The notes: generated by a model not told the origin, from the letters alone. 64,000 nt of DNA from Paludibacter jiangxiensis (GCA_945870155.1 CAMBSB010000006.1:1-64000); one strand, 5' to 3'; counted from the stretch's first letter, positions 1 to 12,175 are shown. Made by a program: numbers and translations.

Positions 1-1506
1 CTCGAAAGATAATTCATAATTAGTAGTGAGTAAAAGTTTTTTAGAAATACGCCACGATAAACTAATTTCTGCAATGTCTTGGGCAAAAATAAGTGCTTTT
101 CTGTATTCAATATCGGCGGCTAATTTGCCATCAAAAAATTCTTTCGACATTGAAGCACCATAGATAAAACCGGACATATTGGCGGTACTCAATGCCGTTC
201 CGGTTAATGTCAACGAACTATTTATCCAGGGCAATTTTGAAAATGTGAGATAGCTGATGGCGTTCATGGACTCATCTGAAGTGGGTGTATGAATGCGATA
301 TCCTGCATTTCCACCCCAACTAACAAACTTAAACGGTCGATAATTAAACCTGAAGCGTAAGCCCTGACGGGTTTCTTTTTCAAGTGTGCTGTCAATTCTG
401 TTTTTGTATGTTTCGTAAAAATAAATATTCTTGCGGGCATCGTATGACAATGAAAGAGTTAACTTGCTGAATGGATGATAATTCAACAACATATAGGCAC
501 TTGTTAGATTAAAGCTGCTTCCTACACCATTATATAAATCAATTTCCGCAGAAGCAAATACATCAAGGTTTTTAAGGATTGAATTAGCGTGTTGAAGATA
601 GAGATATCGTCTATCAGTTTTAAAATTATTTGTCTGATTAAAATACCCTATGGATGTTTGTGAATATAAGCTTTCGCGTTGGAAGTTATGACTTATAAAT
701 GCGCCATATTGCAATAATTTAAAATCTAAACCGTAAGTTGTATCGTTAGGGCGAAAACCGGCCAAAGCTCCAAGACTTATGTTTTTAAATCTTTTTTCAA
801 ATTGAAACCCATCCACTGCACCGATATTCGATGTGTTAGCGTTAATTTTTCTTCCAATATTCCAAGCTGAAGATTTACCTGAGTAGCTTAATGCAAGATT
901 GTAAATTTTTAAATCTTGTAATGCCAATGGACTATTGAAAGTATGGGTGAAAGACATATAATTATCGAACGAAAAATTTGATTTGGCTATATTTTCGGCA
1001 TTTAATGACAAATTATATCTCAAACGATAATTCGGTGTAGAGAGACTTAGCGGATTAGATGCAAAGTTTGAATAGGATGATACAGATATTCGCCCATCAA
1101 ATCTTTCTCGATTTAGCTTGGTAGAATCCTTTGATCTGGATGTTTTTTGTACTAAGTCATTAACTGCTACTGATTCATTCAATTTTTCGGTAATTACTTC
1201 AACAGGCAAAATAACTTTAATTACTGCTGTAATTTGTGTTGAGATTGGCAATTGTATAGCATTTATTGGACTCCCAACACACGATATAGAAGATAAGTTG
1301 TTCACAACTATAGCTGGTTTTAAAACCTTGTCTTTAAGCACAAACAAGGTATCACCAATTCTAATTCCATCAGTGTTTACAAACTGAACATAAATATTTT
1401 GTGAACTAATAAATGAAACACTACCATATTTTGTTTCGACTATACCTTGAGCTAAAAGGTTGGATACTAAAAAAATAAATAGTGAGCTTATTAAGAATTT
1501 CTTCAT
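1..1506 (-). CDS. Secreted, probably outer-membrane beta-barrel protein (C-terminus beyond the window edge)
   Basis: Open minus-strand frame from ATG at 1506 running off position 1. N-terminus MKKFLISSLFIFLVSNLLAQG looks like a signal peptide. Body has many short alternating aromatic/polar segments (e.g. LRYNLSLNAENIAKSNFSFDNYMSFTHTF, LTLSLSYDARKNIYFY) typical of barrels. Absent from the ORF track because it is truncated. Confidence 0.7.
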   Translation of the reverse strand, partial: MKKFLISSLFIFLVSNLLAQGIVETKYGSVSFISSQNIYVQFVNTDGIRIGDTLFVLKDKVLKPAIVVNNLSSISCVGSPINAIQLPISTQITAVIKVILPVEVITEKLNESVAVNDLVQKTSRSKDSTKLNRERFDGRISVSSYSNFASNPLSLSTPNYRLRYNLSLNAENIAKSNFSFDNYMSFTHTFNSPLALQDLKIYNLALSYSGKSSAWNIGRKINANTSNIGAVDGFQFEKRFKNISLGALAGFRPNDTTYGLDFKLLQYGAFISHNFQRESLYSQTSIGYFNQTNNFKTDRRYLYLQHANSILKNLDVFASAEIDLYNGVGSSFNLTSAYMLLNYHPFSKLTLSLSYDARKNIYFYETYKNRIDSTLEKETRQGLRFRFNYRPFKFVSWGGNAGYRIHTPTSDESMNAISYLTFSKLPWINSSLTLTGTALSTANMSGFIYGASMSKEFFDGKLAADIEYRKALIFAQDIAEISLSWRISKKLLLTTNYELSFE

Positions 1507-1552
1507 TGCTTCGTTAATAAAAAAATGTGTTTTTACAAGAAAAATTCAATTA

Positions 1553-2602
1553 TCAATCATCTCCTTTCTTGCCATCGGGATGACAAGAAACACAAGCCGA
1601 TGAAAGATAAACATAATCATCTTTGCCTCTATGCTGTTGGTCGGTTCTGGACTTGTTATGTTCATGGCAACTCGTACAGTTTGGTTTATAATCCATGGTG
1701 TTACTGTGGCAATCAACACATCGTGTCCAAGCGCCATTGTGTTTGCCCGAATAAATACCAAAATGGCTATCGTGTTGCTTATATTTAACGGTATTCCAAT
1801 TTATATTGGTATGACATTCGGTGCAACTGAATCGGGCAAAAGTATTTGCATGAGCAGGTAACACATTGATTGCCTGAGATTTCTTCCCGCTATGACAAGT
1901 AGTACAATCCGAAGAAAGCTTTTTACGATAATCTCCATCTTCATGACATTCGTTACAATCAATATTATGGCCACCTGTAAGTGGGAAATAATTATGGTCG
2001 AAACCTTTACCTATCGAATTCCAATTCATTCCTGTCATATTATGACATCGGGCACAATCGGTATCGAAACCTAAAGCTTTGTGATCGAATGGTTTACCTG
2101 CTGTTTCAAAATACTTTTGTTTGTGACAGGCATAACAATCTGTTCTGATGTTATCAAATCGGAGTTTGGATGCTGAGGTATGACACCTATTACAGTCAGC
2201 AGTTTCGTGAGAACCTCTTAACGGAAATCCTGTTTCTTGATGTAAAGATTTTACGCGTGTAACAATCCACGAATTGGTGTTATGACATCTTTCGCAATCT
2301 TTTCCTACAGTGCCTTGATGCACATCTATATGACATTCATTACATTTACTTGGTACATTCTTGAAGTCCAGGGAAATATGACATTTTCTGCAATCAATAC
2401 TTTTATGCTGTCCTTTAAGTGGAAATTTTGTATTGTTATGATCAAAACCGGTTTTTATTTTATTCCAATTTTCGGTAACATGACAAACCGCACAGTCAAC
2501 CTTAAGTTTATCACCATGGGGCGATTTTTCTTTTGCGCTGACCAATACGCTCAATAATAAAAATATGAATATAATTTTATGCATGTTGTTATAATTACTC
2601 AT
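1553..2602 (-). CDS. Multiheme c-type cytochrome, 13 CXXCH motifs
   Basis: 349 aa; 13 CXXCH motifs counted (CAVCH, CRKCH, CNECH, CERCH, CNRCH, CYACH, CARCH, CNECH, CTTCH, CTECH, CVDCH, CTSCH, CVSCH). Signal peptide-like start, probably at the internal MHKIIFIFLLLSVLVSA. Confidence 0.93.
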   Translation of the reverse strand: MSNYNNMHKIIFIFLLLSVLVSAKEKSPHGDKLKVDCAVCHVTENWNKIKTGFDHNNTKFPLKGQHKSIDCRKCHISLDFKNVPSKCNECHIDVHQGTVGKDCERCHNTNSWIVTRVKSLHQETGFPLRGSHETADCNRCHTSASKLRFDNIRTDCYACHKQKYFETAGKPFDHKALGFDTDCARCHNMTGMNWNSIGKGFDHNYFPLTGGHNIDCNECHEDGDYRKKLSSDCTTCHSGKKSQAINVLPAHANTFARFSCTECHTNINWNTVKYKQHDSHFGIYSGKHNGAWTRCVDCHSNTMDYKPNCTSCHEHNKSRTDQQHRGKDDYVYLSSACVSCHPDGKKGDD

Positions 2603-2627
2603 TTTGCACTATTAAATCAATAAAATA

Positions 2628-4091
2628 CTAATTTTCAACAATGTTTACAAAATCTTTCCAACCTATCGCATTTGAATAAGCAGTTTTAGTTCCAAGCGGT
2701 ACATGTAAGGTACAATTTGCTTTATCTACCCCTTCGAAAGCGGATAATGCACTTATCAAATCGATAGGAACTGGATTTTTAACATATATATTTGTTAATC
2801 CTGAGCAGTTGAAAAATGCTCGTTTGCTGATATCAAGTAAGCTTTCCGGAAAAGAAATTGAATTCAGCTTAACACAATTACTAAAAGCCGAATTGTCGAT
2901 AAACAGTATATTAGCATCTACAATAAATGAACCTGATTTTGAAGGAATACAGCGTTTTAAAGTAAACTGACTTATATCATTTAAAACGCCATTTGTATAG
3001 GTGAAAATCATATTATCCGCTGCAACAGTGAAACCGGAAATACCCAAGCATCCTTCAAAAACCTGTTGCCCAATATACCACATGGATGACGAAATAGGAA
3101 AATTACCTGAAAGTGAAACACAATTATAAAACGCATAATCCTCAATAACAGAAGTAGTTGGTGGTAACTGTATTCCGGTCAGTTTATCGTTGTTAGCAAA
3201 CGCCCAAGGCCCTATTGAACTTACTGTAGCAGGTACATTATAAACTCCTGATTTACTTTTTGGAAACTGAATTAATGTAGATTTATCAGCATTGAAAAGC
3301 ACTCCATCAGCTGATGAGAAATTTAAATTTGTTGTACTTACATTGAATAATCCACCACAAGCATTAAATGCAGACAAACCAATTTCTGTGAGTGATTCAG
3401 GTATTTCTATAGTTGAAATTTTCTCACAATTTGCAAATGCCCAAGGATGTATTGTGATAACCGAATCGGGAAAAACCAAATTTCCGGTTAAGTTCACACA
3501 GCCCTGAAAAGCAGACTCACCAATAAGTTTAGCGCCCGAAATTGCTATTCCGGTTAAATTTTCACAAAACGAAAAAGCTGATTTCCCGATTGTATCTTTA
3601 ACTGAAGCTGGAATAATTAATTCACCACTAATGCCGGTACTATTAAAAGCATAATCTCTGATAGAGCGGATAGAATTGGGCAGAATTATCGTTTGTAAAC
3701 CAGCCTTTCCGACCGAGGTTTTCTGATTGTAAAAGGCAAACTCGGGAATTGAATTGGCACTATATCTGTAAACACTGTTAAAACCTGTACCTTCGTATCC
3801 GTTATACGATGCAATTACCGCATTACTCAAATCAAGTACCTGAAGATTTGGCATTTCATCGCGCATAGTTTTAAAATCCCGGCTATCGATTGTGTCATTA
3901 ATCTTCAATTTGGTAATTAATCGCATTCTCAATCCTAAAGCCATTTCCAGTCCACCGGGTCTAATTTTACTTACAATAGTGTAACCACCAGAAACCGAAA
4001 CTTTGGAGGTAAATAAGCTATCATCATTGCATGCAACGAAAACAAGTAAGCTTGAAAGTAAAATTATAAATGATAAATTATGTCTTTTCAT
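2628..4091 (-). CDS. BspA-type leucine-rich-repeat (LRR_5) lipoprotein
   Basis: Repeated motifs such as LPNSIRSIRDYAFNSTG, IPASVKDTIGKSAFSFCENLTGI, IPESLTEIGLSAFNACGGL. Lipobox FVACNDD. Start revised from 4166 to the internal ATG at 4091 (MKRHNLSFIILLSSLLVFVAC), because the longer ORF overlaps the upstream gene. Confidence 0.88.
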   Translation of the reverse strand: MKRHNLSFIILLSSLLVFVACNDDSLFTSKVSVSGGYTIVSKIRPGGLEMALGLRMRLITKLKINDTIDSRDFKTMRDEMPNLQVLDLSNAVIASYNGYEGTGFNSVYRYSANSIPEFAFYNQKTSVGKAGLQTIILPNSIRSIRDYAFNSTGISGELIIPASVKDTIGKSAFSFCENLTGIAISGAKLIGESAFQGCVNLTGNLVFPDSVITIHPWAFANCEKISTIEIPESLTEIGLSAFNACGGLFNVSTTNLNFSSADGVLFNADKSTLIQFPKSKSGVYNVPATVSSIGPWAFANNDKLTGIQLPPTTSVIEDYAFYNCVSLSGNFPISSSMWYIGQQVFEGCLGISGFTVAADNMIFTYTNGVLNDISQFTLKRCIPSKSGSFIVDANILFIDNSAFSNCVKLNSISFPESLLDISKRAFFNCSGLTNIYVKNPVPIDLISALSAFEGVDKANCTLHVPLGTKTAYSNAIGWKDFVNIVEN

Positions 4092-4119
4092 TTTTTTCAA
4101 TTTATTCTTGCTTGATAAA

Positions 4120-5715
4120 TTATTTATGACAACGGGCACACGAAATATCATCAAACTTATACTCAATGTATTTCCCTTTTTCGTTCATAACCGGTTTATG
4201 GCATTCTTCACATTTAACTCCAATGTGTTTACCATCAATTTTGAAACGTGAAGTATTGTGGTCGTATTTTGAATTTTCCCATTTATCAAATCCATGACAT
4301 CGGGTACAGTCTGTTTTTCCATTTACTTCAAACTGACCCACGTGTGAATCTTTGTGGCACGAAGAGCATTCTTGCGAAAGATTTTGAAATTTTTGAGTTC
4401 TCACACCAAGCTCATTTTTACCGTAATGACATTCACCACAAGCAGTTTTAGCATGTTCTCCTTCAAGTTTAAAGCCAGTTTTATTATGGTCGAATTTAAT
4501 TTCTTTCCAGTTTTTGGCATTATGACATGCAGTACATTCTTCATTTGGATAAAACTTTTCTTGAATAAAACCTTTGTGTTCGTTTTTATGACAATCCACA
4601 CATTTGGTGCCCATGTTTTTGAATGACCAGTTTTTATTGTCTTTTTTATGACATGCCATACACGATGAAGCTAAATGAGCATCTTCTAATTTAAACTTTG
4701 TTTTATTGTGTTTTTCGATGGTAAAAGTACTAGGTATAAAACCATCATTCGTGTGGCATTGATCACAATCGGGAGTGACGCCTTTTTTTGTAAAATCACC
4801 CTTGTGATAATCTTTGTGACAAGACTGACATTGATTATGTTTAATTGGCGCTGTCAGCTCTCCTTTATGACATTGTTTACAATCAACTAATTTATGTTTT
4901 CCTACGAGTTTAAAGTCTGTTTTGTCATGATCAAAAGCTTTCATACTTTTATTAAAATGAAATGATTCTTCAGTATGACATTTTTTGCAGTTTTGACCAA
5001 GCTTATTGTCATGTACATCTTTATGACAAGGAGTACAATTTGTAAAATTTAACCCCGTGAACTTTTGAGCTTTCTTTCCGTTAATTATTTCCACTTTATG
5101 ACAATCGACACAAGCTACTTTTATATGCTTGCCCAATAAAGGAAATTTGGTTTTACTGTGATCAAATCTTTCTGCATTTTTCCATGAATCAAAATTATGA
5201 CATTCAGTACATTTGGATGAGAGTTTTCCTTGATGATAATCGTCGTGGCACGATAAACAGGTTTGATTTAAACCGAGGTAGGTTGTAAGTTTCTTTTTAT
5301 ATTTTGGATCTTTAATAAATTCTGGTTTATGACAAGCTTTACATTCCTGTTTCGCGTGTTTACCCTTCAAAACAAATCCTGCTTTAGCGTGGTCAAAAGT
5401 TTTTTTGTTGAATTTTATTACCTGAAAGTTTTTACCGTGATGATCATTGTGGCAAGCGGCACAGTTCTTTCCTTTTACTTCGGACGAAGCATGGTAACCC
5501 TTATTGGCATTAATATTTGCTTGAATTTCTTTGTGACAGTCTAAGCATTTTTCACGTGTTACTTTATTGGCAAAAGCATGACATTGAGTACAATTGCTTG
5601 CACCTTCTAAGTGTTCGTGGGCTTTACATAATTCACCGGGAGAGATTTGTGCGTTAGCATAAGTCCCGAAAAATATACATAATACGAATAATGAAATTAT
5701 TTTATTTAAATTCAT
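4120..5715 (-). CDS. Multiheme c-type cytochrome, 20 CXXCH motifs
   Basis: 531 aa; signal peptide MNLNKIISLFVLCIFFGTYANAQ; 20 CXXCH motifs counted; repeated FDHxKTxFxLxGKHxxxxCxxCH module. Confidence 0.94.
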   Translation of the reverse strand: MNLNKIISLFVLCIFFGTYANAQISPGELCKAHEHLEGASNCTQCHAFANKVTREKCLDCHKEIQANINANKGYHASSEVKGKNCAACHNDHHGKNFQVIKFNKKTFDHAKAGFVLKGKHAKQECKACHKPEFIKDPKYKKKLTTYLGLNQTCLSCHDDYHQGKLSSKCTECHNFDSWKNAERFDHSKTKFPLLGKHIKVACVDCHKVEIINGKKAQKFTGLNFTNCTPCHKDVHDNKLGQNCKKCHTEESFHFNKSMKAFDHDKTDFKLVGKHKLVDCKQCHKGELTAPIKHNQCQSCHKDYHKGDFTKKGVTPDCDQCHTNDGFIPSTFTIEKHNKTKFKLEDAHLASSCMACHKKDNKNWSFKNMGTKCVDCHKNEHKGFIQEKFYPNEECTACHNAKNWKEIKFDHNKTGFKLEGEHAKTACGECHYGKNELGVRTQKFQNLSQECSSCHKDSHVGQFEVNGKTDCTRCHGFDKWENSKYDHNTSRFKIDGKHIGVKCEECHKPVMNEKGKYIEYKFDDISCARCHK

Positions 5716-5854
5716 TTTTTTGAATGTCTAATAGTTTGTTAGATAATTCTTTAAAAAGCTGAAAATTTAACGGATTTGAAACTTAATATCTACTTCTTCT
5801 CTTGTCTACTCATTTACGTCTTAACTTGTTTCCTTTTTTCCTTCTTCACTAAAC

Positions 5855-7186
5855 TCAATGTTTCATTACAACATCACCAAATTTTGTGCTAACATGAATA
5901 CCCGTTTTCTTTAAAAAAGCAGTTGGCAACTCACCTCCAGCAAATATATACACTAAGTCATTCTCAATTTTAATTTCTTGAGAATCACCATTTAATGTAT
6001 ATCTAACAAAATCATTTTGTATAGAAGTTAGATTTGAATTAAAAATCACATCAATTTTCCCTGCAATAATTGCGTTATTTATCAATTCCGCATTTCGGGG
6101 TTTCAATCTATTGAATTTTTCACCTCTGAATGATAATGTAACATTGTTTTCGTTGGCTAAAAGTAAGGCTGATTCTACAGCTGCATCTCCACCACCAACA
6201 ACTATAATTTTTTGGTTTTTAATTAATTCTGAATCAAGAAGTCGATAAGCAACTTTCTGGCTCATTTCTCCGAAAATATTTAATTTGCGAGGAGTTCCTC
6301 TACGACCTAAAGCTAATAATATAGTTTGTGTTGTAAAAACCTCACCTTGCAAGGTTTCAACTTGAAACATCTCTCCTACCTTACTTATCTTTTCGACTTT
6401 TGATTTTTCTTTGATAGTTATATTATGTTTCTTAAGTATTGAAGTCCAAATAGTTAGCAATTCATCTTTTGAAGTTTCTTTCATTTTTACTTTTCCATAA
6501 AGAGGCAAATCCATAGGATGAGTCATTACAATTTTTGACCTTGGATAAGTGTATACTGAACCTCCCAGACTATCCTGCTCAAGAGTCAGAACATTTAAGC
6601 TGGCTTTTTTTGCAGCCAAAGTAGCAGAAATTCCGGCAGGACCGGCGCCAACCACAATAACATCATATTGAGTGTCAAAATCTTTTTTAATTGATTTTGC
6701 AATATTCTCCATAGCTTCGCGCCCTTGAGTTACCGCGTTTCTAATCAAACCCATACCACCGAGTTCACCCGCAATAAATATTCCGGAAACATTTGTTTCA
6801 AAATTTGGCAAAATATGAGGCAAATCAACTCCGCGCTTTTCAGTACCTATCCACAATGAAATTGCATCAACCGGACAAGCTCTGAAACACGCTCCATGTC
6901 CTATACATTGTGATGCATTAATTATGGTGGCTCGCCCATTTCTAATTCCAAGAATATCATGTTCGGGACATGCTTTTATACAAGCCCCACTTTTAATACA
7001 TCTATTGGGATCAACAACAGGATAAAGTGATACAGGTTCATAAATTCCATCTGCTTTCGCTTGAGCAATTTTTTCTGTAACATTTTTAGATTCAATCCTT
7101 TGTTTGCGAATATAAATAATAAGTACAACTATTGTTAATATTGCAACAAATCCGTATATTAATATTTCTTCAATTAAAACTTCCAT
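5855..7186 (-). CDS. Membrane-anchored FAD/NAD(P)-dependent oxidoreductase with two ferredoxin-like Fe-S motifs
   Basis: N-terminal hydrophobic helix (IYGFVAILTIVVLIIYIRKQR). Fe-S motifs DPNRCIKSGACIKACP and NASQCIGHGACFRACP. Dinucleotide-binding motifs VIVVGAGPAGISA and IIVVGGGDAAVESA. Start revised to 7186 (MEVLIEEI). Confidence 0.87.
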   Translation of the reverse strand: MEVLIEEILIYGFVAILTIVVLIIYIRKQRIESKNVTEKIAQAKADGIYEPVSLYPVVDPNRCIKSGACIKACPEHDILGIRNGRATIINASQCIGHGACFRACPVDAISLWIGTEKRGVDLPHILPNFETNVSGIFIAGELGGMGLIRNAVTQGREAMENIAKSIKKDFDTQYDVIVVGAGPAGISATLAAKKASLNVLTLEQDSLGGSVYTYPRSKIVMTHPMDLPLYGKVKMKETSKDELLTIWTSILKKHNITIKEKSKVEKISKVGEMFQVETLQGEVFTTQTILLALGRRGTPRKLNIFGEMSQKVAYRLLDSELIKNQKIIVVGGGDAAVESALLLANENNVTLSFRGEKFNRLKPRNAELINNAIIAGKIDVIFNSNLTSIQNDFVRYTLNGDSQEIKIENDLVYIFAGGELPTAFLKKTGIHVSTKFGDVVMKH

Positions 7187-7190
7187 GTTC

Positions 7191-7976
7191 TTAAAATATC
7201 CATTTATAGCCAAAATACAAAACGACTCCAACATGTATCAACATAATTATCAACATTATAAGTGCAAAAGGTAAATGTGCTACATGCCAATAATTAAACA
7301 ATCTCTTTACTCTATCTAAATTGTTTATTCGTGTGGTTAATATTTTTTCTTTCCGTATCAATCTTTTAATTTTCGAAAATTCTTCATTTAAAATATGATT
7401 TGAAAGGAGTTTTAATTTAATTTGCGAAAATCTGCTTGTTTTTATTTCCGCAAAATTAATATTGTATTTATTTTGTAACTCTTCATTCAAAGTATCTCTT
7501 CTTTGTTTTAATTCATTCAAAGTCAACTCTCTGCCTTCAATTGTATGTGGAATTTGCAAATATAGAAATCGTCCAATAACGCCACTTACCCAAACTATAG
7601 TTAAACTCCAAAATCCAACAGAAATAATACCTCCAAATTTAAAAGTCGTATGAAAAAGCACAAATACAGTACCTAAAGTGCAAAGAAAAATATGAAATTC
7701 GAGCCAATACTTTAATACACCAACACGAGCAAAAATCTTCATTCTTTTACGTGCCATATACCCAAATAAGCCAATCAGAATAATTAAAGTACCAATAATA
7801 CCCAATCCGTGACCAAGCAAACCACTTGGTTTAAATAATTCATAATTTGGATGAAATGGTCGTTCTGATATAGGAAGTCGATAATAAGACTGACCGTAAT
7901 AGGCTAATAAAACCATACTAGCCAAAATAATTATAAAATAAAGTACAATTGAAGTTCTATGCAGGCCTTTAGTCAT
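7191..7976 (-). CDS. Polytopic His-containing membrane protein, putative cytochrome b-like electron carrier
   Basis: 261 aa with several hydrophobic helices. Histidines inside helices (WLEFHIFLCTLGTVFVLFHTTF, YWHVAHLPFALIMLIIMLIHVGVVLYFGY). Its stop lies 4 bp from the start of the flavoprotein gene. Confidence 0.7.
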   Translation of the reverse strand: MTKGLHRTSIVLYFIIILASMVLLAYYGQSYYRLPISERPFHPNYELFKPSGLLGHGLGIIGTLIILIGLFGYMARKRMKIFARVGVLKYWLEFHIFLCTLGTVFVLFHTTFKFGGIISVGFWSLTIVWVSGVIGRFLYLQIPHTIEGRELTLNELKQRRDTLNEELQNKYNINFAEIKTSRFSQIKLKLLSNHILNEEFSKIKRLIRKEKILTTRINNLDRVKRLFNYWHVAHLPFALIMLIIMLIHVGVVLYFGYKWIF

Positions 7977-8209
7977 AATTTTTAAGAGAAATTTTGTCGA
8001 AAATTGTTATCAATAACACTTTAAAAACTAGATACAATTTTATAGTTTTACACAAAAGTAGTCATTTACTTTAATTTAATTACTTAAAATCAAAAATCAA
8101 CTGCAATTTGTAATGATTCTAAATTAGAATTAATTTAAAAAAAGTTTATAAAAAATTGCAATCATTTTAAAATCAGAAGTATAACTTTTAAAATTATAAT
8201 CTCTATAAT

Positions 8210-11200
8210 TTAAAGCTTATTTATTTTTTGTTCGTTTTTATATGCAAAATAAATCAGCAAAATAATGCCTATAATGATTAAATACAATACTGTCGGAATG
8301 GGCGGAGGTGTTCCCTGGCCATAAGAATGCATTCCTGAAAGATAATAATTAACACCTAAAAATGTCATAATAACTGAGCTAAATGCAATCATAGCTGCCG
8401 TATTAAAAACCAATAAATTATTGGTTTTAGGAATCTTACGTAAGTGCAAAATAATTGAATAAACTAAAATACTTACTAAGGCCCAAGTTTCTTTGGAGTC
8501 CCAGCCCCAGTATCGTCCCCACGATTCGTTGGCCCAAACACCACCAAGAAAAGTACCCACTGTGAGCATAAACAGACCAATTATAAGCGAAAGTTCAATT
8601 ATATAGCTAAATTCCTGAATGTTATCATTAATTTTCAAGGCGTTTTTTGTTGTACGAGCTATCATCAAACACAAGTTAAAAAACGACAACATGGCAGCAG
8701 TTGCTAAAAAACCATAGCTGGAAGTAATTACAGCAACATGAACAACGAGCCAATAAGATTTTAACACCGGAACAAGATTTGTTATTTCAGGATTCATCCA
8801 ACTCATTCCGGCAACTGACAAGGCTATAGCTGCCAGTAATGATGTAATGGCAAGTGTAATAGGATTTTGACCTGCAAATACTAATCCGGCTAAAGCTGTT
8901 CCCCAACCTACAAAAATCATGGCTTCATAGCCATTGCTCCACGGGGCATGACCAGAAATATACCACCGAAGTGCCAAACCAGCCGTATAAACCAAAAACA
9001 TAAATGCCAGTGGATAAATACTCTTATCCAGGTATTTATCAATTTTCGGGTTGAATTTTAAAATATTGAAAACATGCAAGGAAATTAGTATAATTCCTAT
9101 CAAACCATACAAAATGGCTAAGGTGAGAAATATACTTAAATTGTTATAAATCACCTCTAATTTTACTCGGTTTTTATCAGGAAGCTGGCTACCGCCATTA
9201 ATTTGTTGGTAATTTTTCAAACTGAGTAAAACATTATTTGCATCAGTCCAGTTTCCGGTTTTTTCTGCCTGAACAACAGCTGAAAAGTAGCTATTAATCA
9301 AATTTTCCGGATTAATCGCTTTTGGTTCTGACATGGCTGCACTTAATCCACTCATCATGCCATTTTCCATTGCAGACATATTATTATTCATCATTCCGGA
9401 TTTCGATTCAGTTTCAGCCATCATTTTATTTGATGCAGCATCAAGCTTTCCTGCTTTTCCACTTTTACCGGTTACGGGGCATTTATCATCGGAATTTACA
9501 GTCATTCCTGTTTTTCCTGACATTGGATTACTCGCGCTGCCATCCATTTCGGGCATAACTTCATTGGATGCCGATTGTTGTGTGAAATCTACAGCAGAAA
9601 TCCACTTGTCGGTATCATGTCCACTAACAGGAAAAATTGTGAGCATATTTCCATTAAAAATAGCATTAACAATATTAACTCTTTCGTCAACATTAATAAT
9701 TTCTTTTTCGTATTGATTACGCATCGAAGGATCCTTTTGATAGATAGCATCAACTTTATCGGCAAGCCTATACAAGCCTTCATTATTCATGTCGAAAAGT
9801 TGAGTGAATGATACAAAATCTTTTTCAGCTCCCAATTCTTTTGCCAATCCTTCGTGTGCGATTTTAATAATTGGCTCATTTTGCCAGTATTCCGGGTTGG
9901 TACACATCCCTAATAAAACTTCCAAAGATGACTGACTTTTATAAGTCGTTTTCTTTGATATTTTGCGAATCAAATCGGAGGCATAAGTACTAATAGGCTC
10001 AACTCTACCTTGAGCACCATCTTGAATTAACAAGCTGCTTAATGCCTTAATATGAGCTTCTTTGCTAGTATTCGTAGCAGCAGAAATTGAAACCGAACCG
10101 GCCAACAAACCAACCAAAACCAACATTTTGGCTAATTTGCGTTTCTTTTGCATTTCATTGCTTAGTTTTATTACAGTATAGAAACGGCTGTTTTTATTAA
10201 ATAATGTTAGAACCATACCAATTAGCATTAAAAGATATCCAAAGTAAGTAATCATAGTACCCCAATAATCTTTATTAACCGACAATATAGTTCCTTGTTC
10301 ATCATTGTCATACGACGATTGAAAGAAACGATAACCACGATAATTAAGAATATTATTCATGTAAATACGAAATGGAGTCACTTTTTTAGTTTCGTTATCT
10401 GTTAAAGTAATTTCACTTGCATAGGACGATGGGCTATTTGATCCAGGATAACGATCGAGTTGGAAATCGCGCAATGTTATACTAAAAGGTAGTTTTTGAG
10501 GTAAATTACCATAAACAACACTTACTTTAATGTCATTAAGCAAACAAGTTCCAATATTTGAACTTTCGTTTTCGTCAACCAACAAATTTAGCTTTTTTGA
10601 AATACTTCCATCACTCACATTAAAAATCAGGGCATTTTTTGGTTGAATCGTAACACTCATCTTGTTTAAATCAGGCATTGACTGAGTTAAACTCTTTACG
10701 GAGTTTGGTAAGAATTTTTTAAGTACAAAAACGAGATGCTCACTTTTGTAAATTGTTTTTACTTCGGCTGGAGTAAAAGTACCTATTGGTATAATAGATT
10801 CGGTACCCTGCATCATCGACATTTTTACCACAGGAGTATTGGCTTGCATTAAAAGCTGTTCACCATCCATAGTGAAATTTATATCAGCTTTGACAGTGGA
10901 GTCGGAAAATGCAAAAATTAAATTATTGCTTTCACTACTTTCGCCATCCATAAGTATGATTTCCTGACCTTGGTTATTCTCATTCATCACAAAAATAATG
11001 AACCCAGGTTTACCTTGCTCATCAGCCTCCAGGCTTTCTATTGCGTTAGGAAGAAATAGTTCAGTTTCGACAGTTAAAGTTTTCCCTGCAATTTCAAGTT
11101 TTTGTGAAAATTCATTTGATTCGGTTTGACCAAATTTTACTTCCTCGTTTTTTTCAACTTTCTGACCATTTAATTCGGCCATAATTTTCACAGAACTTAT

Positions 11201-11554
11201 TTGTGAAGAAATTTCATTGCTGGTTTCACCTTCGCGTATATGCATAATTCCTTCTGAACCAAAATATCGTGTAATACCTGCACCAACTAAAATTATTATA
11301 AATGCAATATGAAAAAGCAAAATACTAAACTTTCGAATATTCAATATTTCGTATCTTACTATACTTCCAATTAAATTTATAATAAGTAAAAAAAGTAAAG
11401 CTTCGAACCAAAATGCATTATAAACCAATTCTCTGGCCATTTCTGTACTTTCGTTACTTTCTATAAATGTAGCATAAGCAATACCTATGGCAAATATTGT
11501 TAACAATACCACGCTACTTAACATGGAGAAAAGTACATCATTTAGTTTTTTCAT
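8210..11554 (-). CDS. Fused cytochrome c biogenesis protein (ResB/CcsB + CcsA, system II)
   Basis: N-terminal ResB-like region (TFIESNESTEMARELVYNAFWFEALLFLLIINLIGSIVRYEI, GYRFFQSSYDNDEQGTILSVNKDYWGTMITYFGYLLMLIGM). C-terminal CcsA with WWD-type motif (GGVWANESWGRYWGWDSKETWALV). Start revised to 11554 (MKKLNDVLF). Confidence 0.92.
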   Translation of the reverse strand: MKKLNDVLFSMLSSVVLLTIFAIGIAYATFIESNESTEMARELVYNAFWFEALLFLLIINLIGSIVRYEILNIRKFSILLFHIAFIIILVGAGITRYFGSEGIMHIREGETSNEISSQISSVKIMAELNGQKVEKNEEVKFGQTESNEFSQKLEIAGKTLTVETELFLPNAIESLEADEQGKPGFIIFVMNENNQGQEIILMDGESSESNNLIFAFSDSTVKADINFTMDGEQLLMQANTPVVKMSMMQGTESIIPIGTFTPAEVKTIYKSEHLVFVLKKFLPNSVKSLTQSMPDLNKMSVTIQPKNALIFNVSDGSISKKLNLLVDENESSNIGTCLLNDIKVSVVYGNLPQKLPFSITLRDFQLDRYPGSNSPSSYASEITLTDNETKKVTPFRIYMNNILNYRGYRFFQSSYDNDEQGTILSVNKDYWGTMITYFGYLLMLIGMVLTLFNKNSRFYTVIKLSNEMQKKRKLAKMLVLVGLLAGSVSISAATNTSKEAHIKALSSLLIQDGAQGRVEPISTYASDLIRKISKKTTYKSQSSLEVLLGMCTNPEYWQNEPIIKIAHEGLAKELGAEKDFVSFTQLFDMNNEGLYRLADKVDAIYQKDPSMRNQYEKEIINVDERVNIVNAIFNGNMLTIFPVSGHDTDKWISAVDFTQQSASNEVMPEMDGSASNPMSGKTGMTVNSDDKCPVTGKSGKAGKLDAASNKMMAETESKSGMMNNNMSAMENGMMSGLSAAMSEPKAINPENLINSYFSAVVQAEKTGNWTDANNVLLSLKNYQQINGGSQLPDKNRVKLEVIYNNLSIFLTLAILYGLIGIILISLHVFNILKFNPKIDKYLDKSIYPLAFMFLVYTAGLALRWYISGHAPWSNGYEAMIFVGWGTALAGLVFAGQNPITLAITSLLAAIALSVAGMSWMNPEITNLVPVLKSYWLVVHVAVITSSYGFLATAAMLSFFNLCLMIARTTKNALKINDNIQEFSYIIELSLIIGLFMLTVGTFLGGVWANESWGRYWGWDSKETWALVSILVYSIILHLRKIPKTNNLLVFNTAAMIAFSSVIMTFLGVNYYLSGMHSYGQGTPPPIPTVLYLIIIGIILLIYFAYKNEQKINKL

Positions 11555-11641
11555 ATTACACGTTTTATAAAAAAACTCCACCTAACAATCTAATAATTAA
11601 TGTGGAATTTATGAGAAATATTTTGATTTAAAAATTAAAAA

Positions 11642-12175
11642 TCAATTTGGCGTCCATTTTAGCGATCCAATTGAAATACCTGATTTTGCAGCAGGTGTTT
11701 GCATATCAACTACTGTACCCTTGTTAAATGTAAAACTTACAAACTTGCCAGTTCCATTGTTTTCAGTAAATTCAATGCACAATTTATAAATACCATCGCC
11801 AACATCATTTCCACTTTTATCCTTACCATTCCAAGTACAATTACTAGTCCCATGTTTGGATAAAGTTGCTCCAGTTATGGCATCTGTCGTATTTCCCGAA
11901 GAATTTGATTTATACCAATTAGTTAGATATTGTTTTCGAGAAGCAGCATTTACCTGTAGTGATTTCACAAAAGTTCCTGTACTGCTTTCAATCCAAATAG
12001 CCAACACGTGCGATGGTGCATATTGACCGTTGTAAGTACTTGTTGTAGCAGAGACTACTAATGAACCGGGAGTTTTAACTGAATTTGTAATAGGGTCTTC
12101 AGTACAGGATGGTAAAATTAATAAGAAAATAAAACCCAAAATTAGCAAGAATAAATTTTTGTTTGTAGCTTTCAT
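11642..12175 (-). CDS. DUF2271-like lipoprotein
   Basis: Lipobox LPSCTED. Motifs HVLAIWIESSTGTFVKSLQV, DAITGATLSKHGTSNCTWNGKDKSGNDVGDGIYKLCIEFTENNG resemble DUF2271 proteins (recalled). Confidence 0.72.
   Translation of the reverse strand: MKATNKNLFLLILGFIFLLILPSCTEDPITNSVKTPGSLVVSATTSTYNGQYAPSHVLAIWIESSTGTFVKSLQVNAASRKQYLTNWYKSNSSGNTTDAITGATLSKHGTSNCTWNGKDKSGNDVGDGIYKLCIEFTENNGTGKFVSFTFNKGTVVDMQTPAAKSGISIGSLKWTPN

Follow-up and report, generated by a model that had tools for sequence, protein, structure and literature searches.

We propose that a five-gene unit at the end of a Paludibacter jiangxiensis contig encodes an electron-export conduit of a Bacteroidota type, one that would be driven by NAD(P)H and would work independently of quinone; we give this reading a probability of roughly 0.6. 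In the proposed path, a membrane-anchored flavoprotein (FLAV) would oxidise NAD(P)H, probably NADPH, at the cytoplasmic face and, by way of two unusual Fe-S clusters, deliver electrons singly to a membrane protein (MEMB), whose two b hemes would move them over the inner membrane. A 20-heme cytochrome (MHC20) would accept the electrons in the periplasm and hand them on to a multiheme cytochrome of variable size, which would sit in or at a predicted 22-strand barrel and release them to an acceptor located at the outer membrane or outside it, such as humics, Fe(III) or partner cells. Reductant would be disposed of without the quinone pool, and the c hemes would be attached by a ResB-CcsA protein. 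An electron path from NAD(P)H, FAD and Fe-S to the outer membrane had been put forward in a first-pass annotation of this DNA, and we infer it again from a conserved core, near-perfect co-occurrence of its genes and a predicted 22-strand barrel.

The window, by which we mean the whole stretch of 64,000 nt that was analysed, carries all eight of the co-oriented ORFs described earlier, each of them in place on the minus strand. In transcription order, these encode a DUF2271 lipoprotein (11642-12175), a ResB-CcsA fusion (8210-11554), MEMB (7191-7976), FLAV (5855-7186), MHC20 (4120-5715), an LRR lipoprotein (2628-4091), a 13-CXXCH cytochrome, MHC13 (1553-2602), and an outer-membrane beta-barrel, OMP (1-1506). 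The contig begins at position 1 of the window (G000:C6:1), so the barrel ORF is truncated and has lost its 3ʹ end, falling about 20 C-terminal residues short of the complete 522-aa homologue in locus L040. Alignments of homologues place the likely start of FLAV at 7186 and not at 7234, that of the LRR gene at 4091, where an ATG is followed by a lipoprotein signal, and that of ResB-CcsA at 11554. With these three starts moved, no genes overlap and the spacing between MEMB and FLAV is 4 bp. The intergenic gaps at 5716-5854 and 7977-8209, which had been suggested as possible promoter sites, measured 139 and 233 bp, respectively. Scans for promoters (70 versus 58.6 in shuffles, sd 7.2) and terminators (6 versus 6.0) gave no clear excess. 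Searches with Pfam supported the labels of the cytochromes (Cytochrome_C7/c3), FLAV (Pyr_redox_3 and Fer4), ResB-CcsA (ResB and Cytochrom_C_asm), the LRR protein (LRR_5) and the DUF2271 protein (DUF2271), and no family exceeded the cut-off for the barrel or MEMB. By inspection, the remaining window contains housekeeping, envelope and efflux genes, all without CXXCH.

To define the conserved part of the locus, gene order was compared in 18 loci from genomes of the same genus or order and in 80 named loci from a GTDB scan with the FLAV profile. The order MEMB-FLAV-MHC20-MHC-OMP recurs in Bacteroidales, Saprospiraceae, Flavobacteriia and Ignavibacteria. Its first four genes are strictly contiguous in 46 of the 59 loci with enough flanking genes, and most of the remaining 13 differ by an LRR gene, by an ORF that is split or additional, or by genes that have swapped places; in 43 of 44 loci, OMP is at most four genes away from MHC20. 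When 395 genomes drawn across the phylum were searched, strong matches were obtained for MEMB in 40 (E<1e-60), for MHC20 in 39 (E<1e-80) and for FLAV in 39 (E<1e-80), all three proteins occurring in the identical 39 genomes. The fortieth MEMB genome, G179, has a lone MEMB with an in-frame stop. Pairwise distances of the four proteins across 49 loci correlated at r=0.65-0.77, compared with at most 0.26 after labels were permuted; this correlation comes partly from shared species ancestry and is taken as supporting evidence only. Cultured carriers of the cluster include Prolixibacter denitrificans, Mangrovibacterium lignilyticum, Maribellus luteus, Lutibacter oceani and Yeosuana marina.

The flanking genes are distributed more narrowly. 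ResB-CcsA adjoins the cluster in 12 of the 80 named loci (by inspection); its position is upstream in Bacteroidales, and several Flavobacteriia, Saprospiraceae and others have it downstream. Only close relatives (L016/L035, L017/L040, L034 and L037) were found to have the LRR gene in the place between the two cytochrome genes, and a DUF2271 gene stands beside few loci only. Judged from these comparisons, the functional unit appears to consist of five genes (MEMB-FLAV-MHC20-MHC-barrel) and not eight, with the LRR and DUF2271 genes as accessory members. Membership of a single system, earlier inferred for all eight genes, is thus upheld for these five and likely for ResB-CcsA. For the other two, the LRR gene and the DUF2271 gene, it finds no support, as they go with the cluster in few or close relatives only. 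The DUF2271 protein carries a flavinylation-type motif, DAITGAT; the motif is intact in the window (TGAT) and in L038 (L038:4563-5375) and is degenerate in L043 (L043:4043-4567) and L050, where TGAT is lost, and ApbE matches were found on two other contigs of the genome, one of them partial. We rejected flavinylation as part of the core mechanism because few of the clusters have a DUF2271 gene beside them and the motif is not conserved.

Several further features were seen around the cluster. In many loci, the barrel gene is followed by a lipoprotein-like protein of about 245-270 aa (L107:17141-17929, L055:17011-17745, L088:15601-16341 and L111:17127-17942), which matched no Pfam family. In Ignavibacteria loci, MEMB and FLAV are separated by a TPR protein with a membrane anchor (L102:5032-5625 and L112:1621-2241), that of L112 with a weak match to CcmH/CycH-type TPR. 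A b561-type cytochrome (PF01292) lies between MHC20 and a 12-heme cytochrome at L050:13144-13707. In one congener (L022/L045, G021:C40), FLAV and MHC20 have in-frame stops, attributable to gene decay or to a fault in the assembly.

FLAV is composed of one N-terminal membrane segment, basic residues (by inspection), a two-cluster ferredoxin domain and an FAD/NAD(P)H fold. A profile search of structures gave YpdA/Bdr and TrxR-type ferredoxin-NADP reductases as its nearest solved relatives; it has the FAD/NAD(P)H fold in common with them but, unlike both, also carries a ferredoxin domain and a membrane anchor in the same polypeptide. The Cys spacing at residues 79-120 follows the 2[4Fe-4S] ferredoxin pattern, but each motif has another residue in place of its second Cys: position 82 is S/T in 79 of 80 sequences and position 113 is His in 80/80. 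As this replacement affects both motifs, neither is canonical, and the clusters could possibly be [3Fe-4S] or Ser/His-ligated. Outside the Fe-S motifs, the one Cys common to most of the 80 sequences sits in the membrane segment, and the absence of a conserved Cys pair outside these motifs argues that FLAV is not a disulfide reductase. A YpdA or thioredoxin-reductase function was rejected on the same ground, as well as on a score of 147 bits for the YpdA family model TIGR04018, against a cut-off of 339.9. Residues R370, R376 and K378, which follow the nucleotide-binding motif in 80/80 sequences, hint at NADPH as the nucleotide.

For MEMB, five His residues (H95, H109, H231, H234 and H248) are invariant in 63 homologues. 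The pairs H95/H109 and H234/H248 are each 14 residues apart (His-x13-His) on a single predicted helix, an arrangement that would put one heme near each membrane face. The AlphaFold model was helical (pLDDT 82, pTM 0.66). Weak matches to DUF4405 (PF14358) were found in 40 of the 63 homologues (best E 5.9e-05), the MEMB of the window itself being unmatched, and weak matches to b561 in 8 of 63; a Tetraspanin label fell under the Pfam cut-off and was rejected. Comparison with the PDB by profile and by fold gave nothing convincing, and the evidence for a cytochrome b therefore consists of the His pattern together with the weak DUF4405 and b561 matches. From these, MEMB is a probable di-heme cytochrome b, to which quinol may be a second donor. 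A DUF4405 protein has been purified with heme b (PMC11334425).

The same chain could be run in the opposite direction, with Fe(II) outside the cell, minerals or partner cells as the source of electrons that enter through the barrel and cytochromes, and with FLAV reducing NADP+. Nothing in the anatomy, which is symmetrical, indicates a direction, and barrel-cytochrome pairs of the Pio/Mto type are generally proposed to run inwards (see PMC6344600). However, reduction of NADP+ from such donors would be uphill without proton motive force, and inspection of the named loci revealed no energy-coupling subunit recurring in the cluster. We consider inward transfer unlikely and outward transfer the probable direction.

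Whether the input proteins and the outer proteins form separable parts is suggested by three genomes of the window's own genus. In G006, G011 and G016, MHC20 comes directly after ResB-CcsA, with no contig break between them (L031:3-4197, L033:1-4834 and L018:8911-13854), and two of the three also have MHC12 and a barrel. FLAV and MEMB were not detected anywhere in these genomes (90-98% complete) by profile searches, and the same profiles gave strong matches in the window's own genome as a positive control. Clusters without the flavoprotein and membrane protein, which the first-pass annotation had named as evidence against its proposal, do occur in these congeners; nonetheless, the core is conserved phylum-wide. 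As FLAV and MEMB are missing together, the split supports both as one input module, and the presence of MHC20 without them means that NAD(P)H is not the sole possible donor. We take the split to point to modularity, not to a refutation of the core: the input module appears to be separable, and the outer module could persist with another electron source. The absence of MEMB and FLAV as a pair would reflect natural loss or later gain.

The 33 c-type heme sites reported previously were recovered as 20 CXXCH motifs in MHC20 and 13 in MHC13, compared with means of 0.25 and 0.16, respectively, in 2000 shuffles of the same proteins (maximum 3). No other ORF of at least 100 aa in the window has a CXXCH. 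Across 22 homologues of MHC20 from Bacteroidales, Flavobacteriia, Saprospiraceae and Ignavibacteria, 20/20 CXXCH are invariant, and so are 20 His outside these motifs, a number that 20 non-catalytic hemes with bis-His ligation would require. MHC20 is near-constant in size, copies in Saprospiraceae and Flavobacteriia having mostly 23 motifs. The cytochrome that follows it is the variable member, with 12-13 motifs in 20 loci and otherwise up to 90; the full range of MHC13 counterparts is 9 or more to 90, the lowest counts coming from proteins cut at contig ends. Giant cytochromes in this place, mostly from Saprospiraceae and other Bacteroidetes, were seen in L109 (2271 aa, 90 CXXCH), L074 (72), L082 and L104 (70 in each), L080 (67) and L078 (64). 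We infer that MHC20 serves as the fixed relay in the periplasm and that the outer element, formed by the second cytochrome, can expand. Inspection of the N-termini of MHC20 and MHC13 gave no lipobox or lipoprotein signal, no surface-sorting domain was recognised, and surface exposure of either cytochrome is putative. Membership of the MtrA/DmsE family was rejected, the TIGR03508 scores (49.2 bits for MHC20 and 27.5 for MHC13) being far under the cut-off of 192.2 bits, and MHC20 scored 16.8 bits for the NapC/CymA type (Cytochrom_NNT), below the cut-off of 24.1.

With regard to maturation, ResB and Cytochrom_C_asm both exceeded their cut-offs in one protein, as expected of system II, and the score for the CcsB equivalog TIGR03144 was 163.6 bits, under the cut-off of 187.6. 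ResB-CcsA was the only Cytochrom_C_asm match detected in the genome. Relatives also have Cytochrom_C_asm proteins without MHC20, so this exclusivity is local.

The protein at 1-1506, described earlier as barrel-like, was assessed through its complete homologue in L040, the model of which (pLDDT 81) consists of a small N-terminal beta domain and an outer-membrane barrel with 22 strands counted from the model. The top rows of a Foldseek search with this model were outer-membrane barrels, MtrB (6r2q_B) appearing at rank 48, and no MtrB relatives were found in Pfam (51 homologues) or in a PDB profile search. A barrel gene beside multiheme cytochrome genes is one mark of porin-cytochrome systems, and this is the arrangement seen here with the predicted barrel. 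As this barrel has no plug domain, its pore would have to be filled, and the neighbouring cytochrome would be the obvious candidate.

Insertion of the cytochrome into the barrel would not be needed if the cytochromes stayed periplasmic and buffered electrons or fed an unlinked reductase, with the barrel in a separate role. MHC20 and MHC13 have plain signal peptides, contact between barrel and cytochrome is putative, and variable heme numbers would suit a capacitor, a role speculated for giant cytochromes of sludge (PMC11495043). However, the barrel almost always has the cytochromes as neighbours, and the distances of barrel and cytochromes show a correlation of r=0.77, to which shared ancestry contributes. 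Moreover, no terminal reductase, which the first-pass annotation had considered as a rival explanation if next door, was found in the window or seen by inspection to recur next to the cluster, and NrfA was not detected in the genome. We regard a purely periplasmic store or relay as improbable.

The sequence NAD(P)H-flavin-heme b is also the layout of ferric reductases. An assimilatory or protective enzyme, by which ferric iron or another small substrate would be reduced at the envelope for nutrition or detoxification and not for reductant disposal, is nevertheless improbable as well: ferric-reductase roles have been proposed for flavinylation-linked cytochromes (PMC8238504), but 33 to over 100 hemes are far beyond small-substrate need, and inspection, as opposed to systematic annotation, of the genes next to the named loci revealed no recurring iron transporter.

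The export conduit that we favour resembles MtrCAB, PioAB and MtoAB (Shewanella and others) and OmbB-OmaB-OmcB (Geobacter) in that a barrel is encoded beside large c-type multiheme cytochromes. In contrast to Mtr-type conduits, it has no lipoprotein cytochrome in the role of MtrC or OmcB, a component that PioAB and MtoAB also lack, and by sequence its barrel does not belong to the Mtr family, the Geobacter barrels lying outside this comparison. The input module also differs: here it is co-encoded in the unit and is NAD(P)H/Fe-S/heme-b-like, whereas Mtr-type conduits are fed by a quinol oxidase such as CymA. The cytochromes of flavinylation-associated systems (DUF4405, PepSY and MsrQ-like) are likewise membrane proteins with conserved His pairs (PMC11334425), but the cytoplasmic partner of MEMB is a ferredoxin-flavoprotein.

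Within Bacteroidetes, passages of two reports describe comparable clusters, likewise with multiheme cytochromes beside a predicted barrel. In a humic bog, putative porin-cytochrome genes non-homologous to known ones were reported in several taxa, Bacteroidetes among them, and an unbinned contig carried a 51-heme component of one putative porin-cytochrome system (PMC6344600). In an anode biofilm, a Bacteroidetes cluster described as uncharacterised has six cytochromes and a barrel and, compared by its description only, no flavoprotein (PMC8258643). The MEMB-FLAV input module is not described in these passages of either report, and no description of the module or of the five-gene unit was found in the open literature, the scope of a search that did not extend to subscription papers or preprints. 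Bacteroidota with more than 100 heme motifs have been reported in sludge (PMC11495043). Iron corrosion by Prolixibacter was set aside as support for the conduit because its authors name nitrite as the cause (PMC8368055). As far as compared, the unit would work like a porin-cytochrome system, and its barrel and input parts match no characterised electron-export system. A more specific picture, in which phylum-wide, quinone-independent extracellular electron transfer would run from NADPH through a ferredoxin-type flavoprotein with His and Ser/Thr at non-Cys positions of its two Fe-S clusters and a two-heme b cytochrome to a near-constant 20-heme wire and then an expandable wire of up to 90 hemes in a non-MtrB barrel, is offered more tentatively.

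If the export reading is true, about one in ten sampled Bacteroidota genomes would carry a self-contained electron export that, judged from its parts, is fed by NAD(P)H and not by quinol, and fermenters would have a route to shed reductant. The giant Bacteroidota cytochromes that are unassigned at present would gain an operon context. A specific operon would also be named in cultured carriers, in which the split between input and outer modules would make the modular design directly testable.
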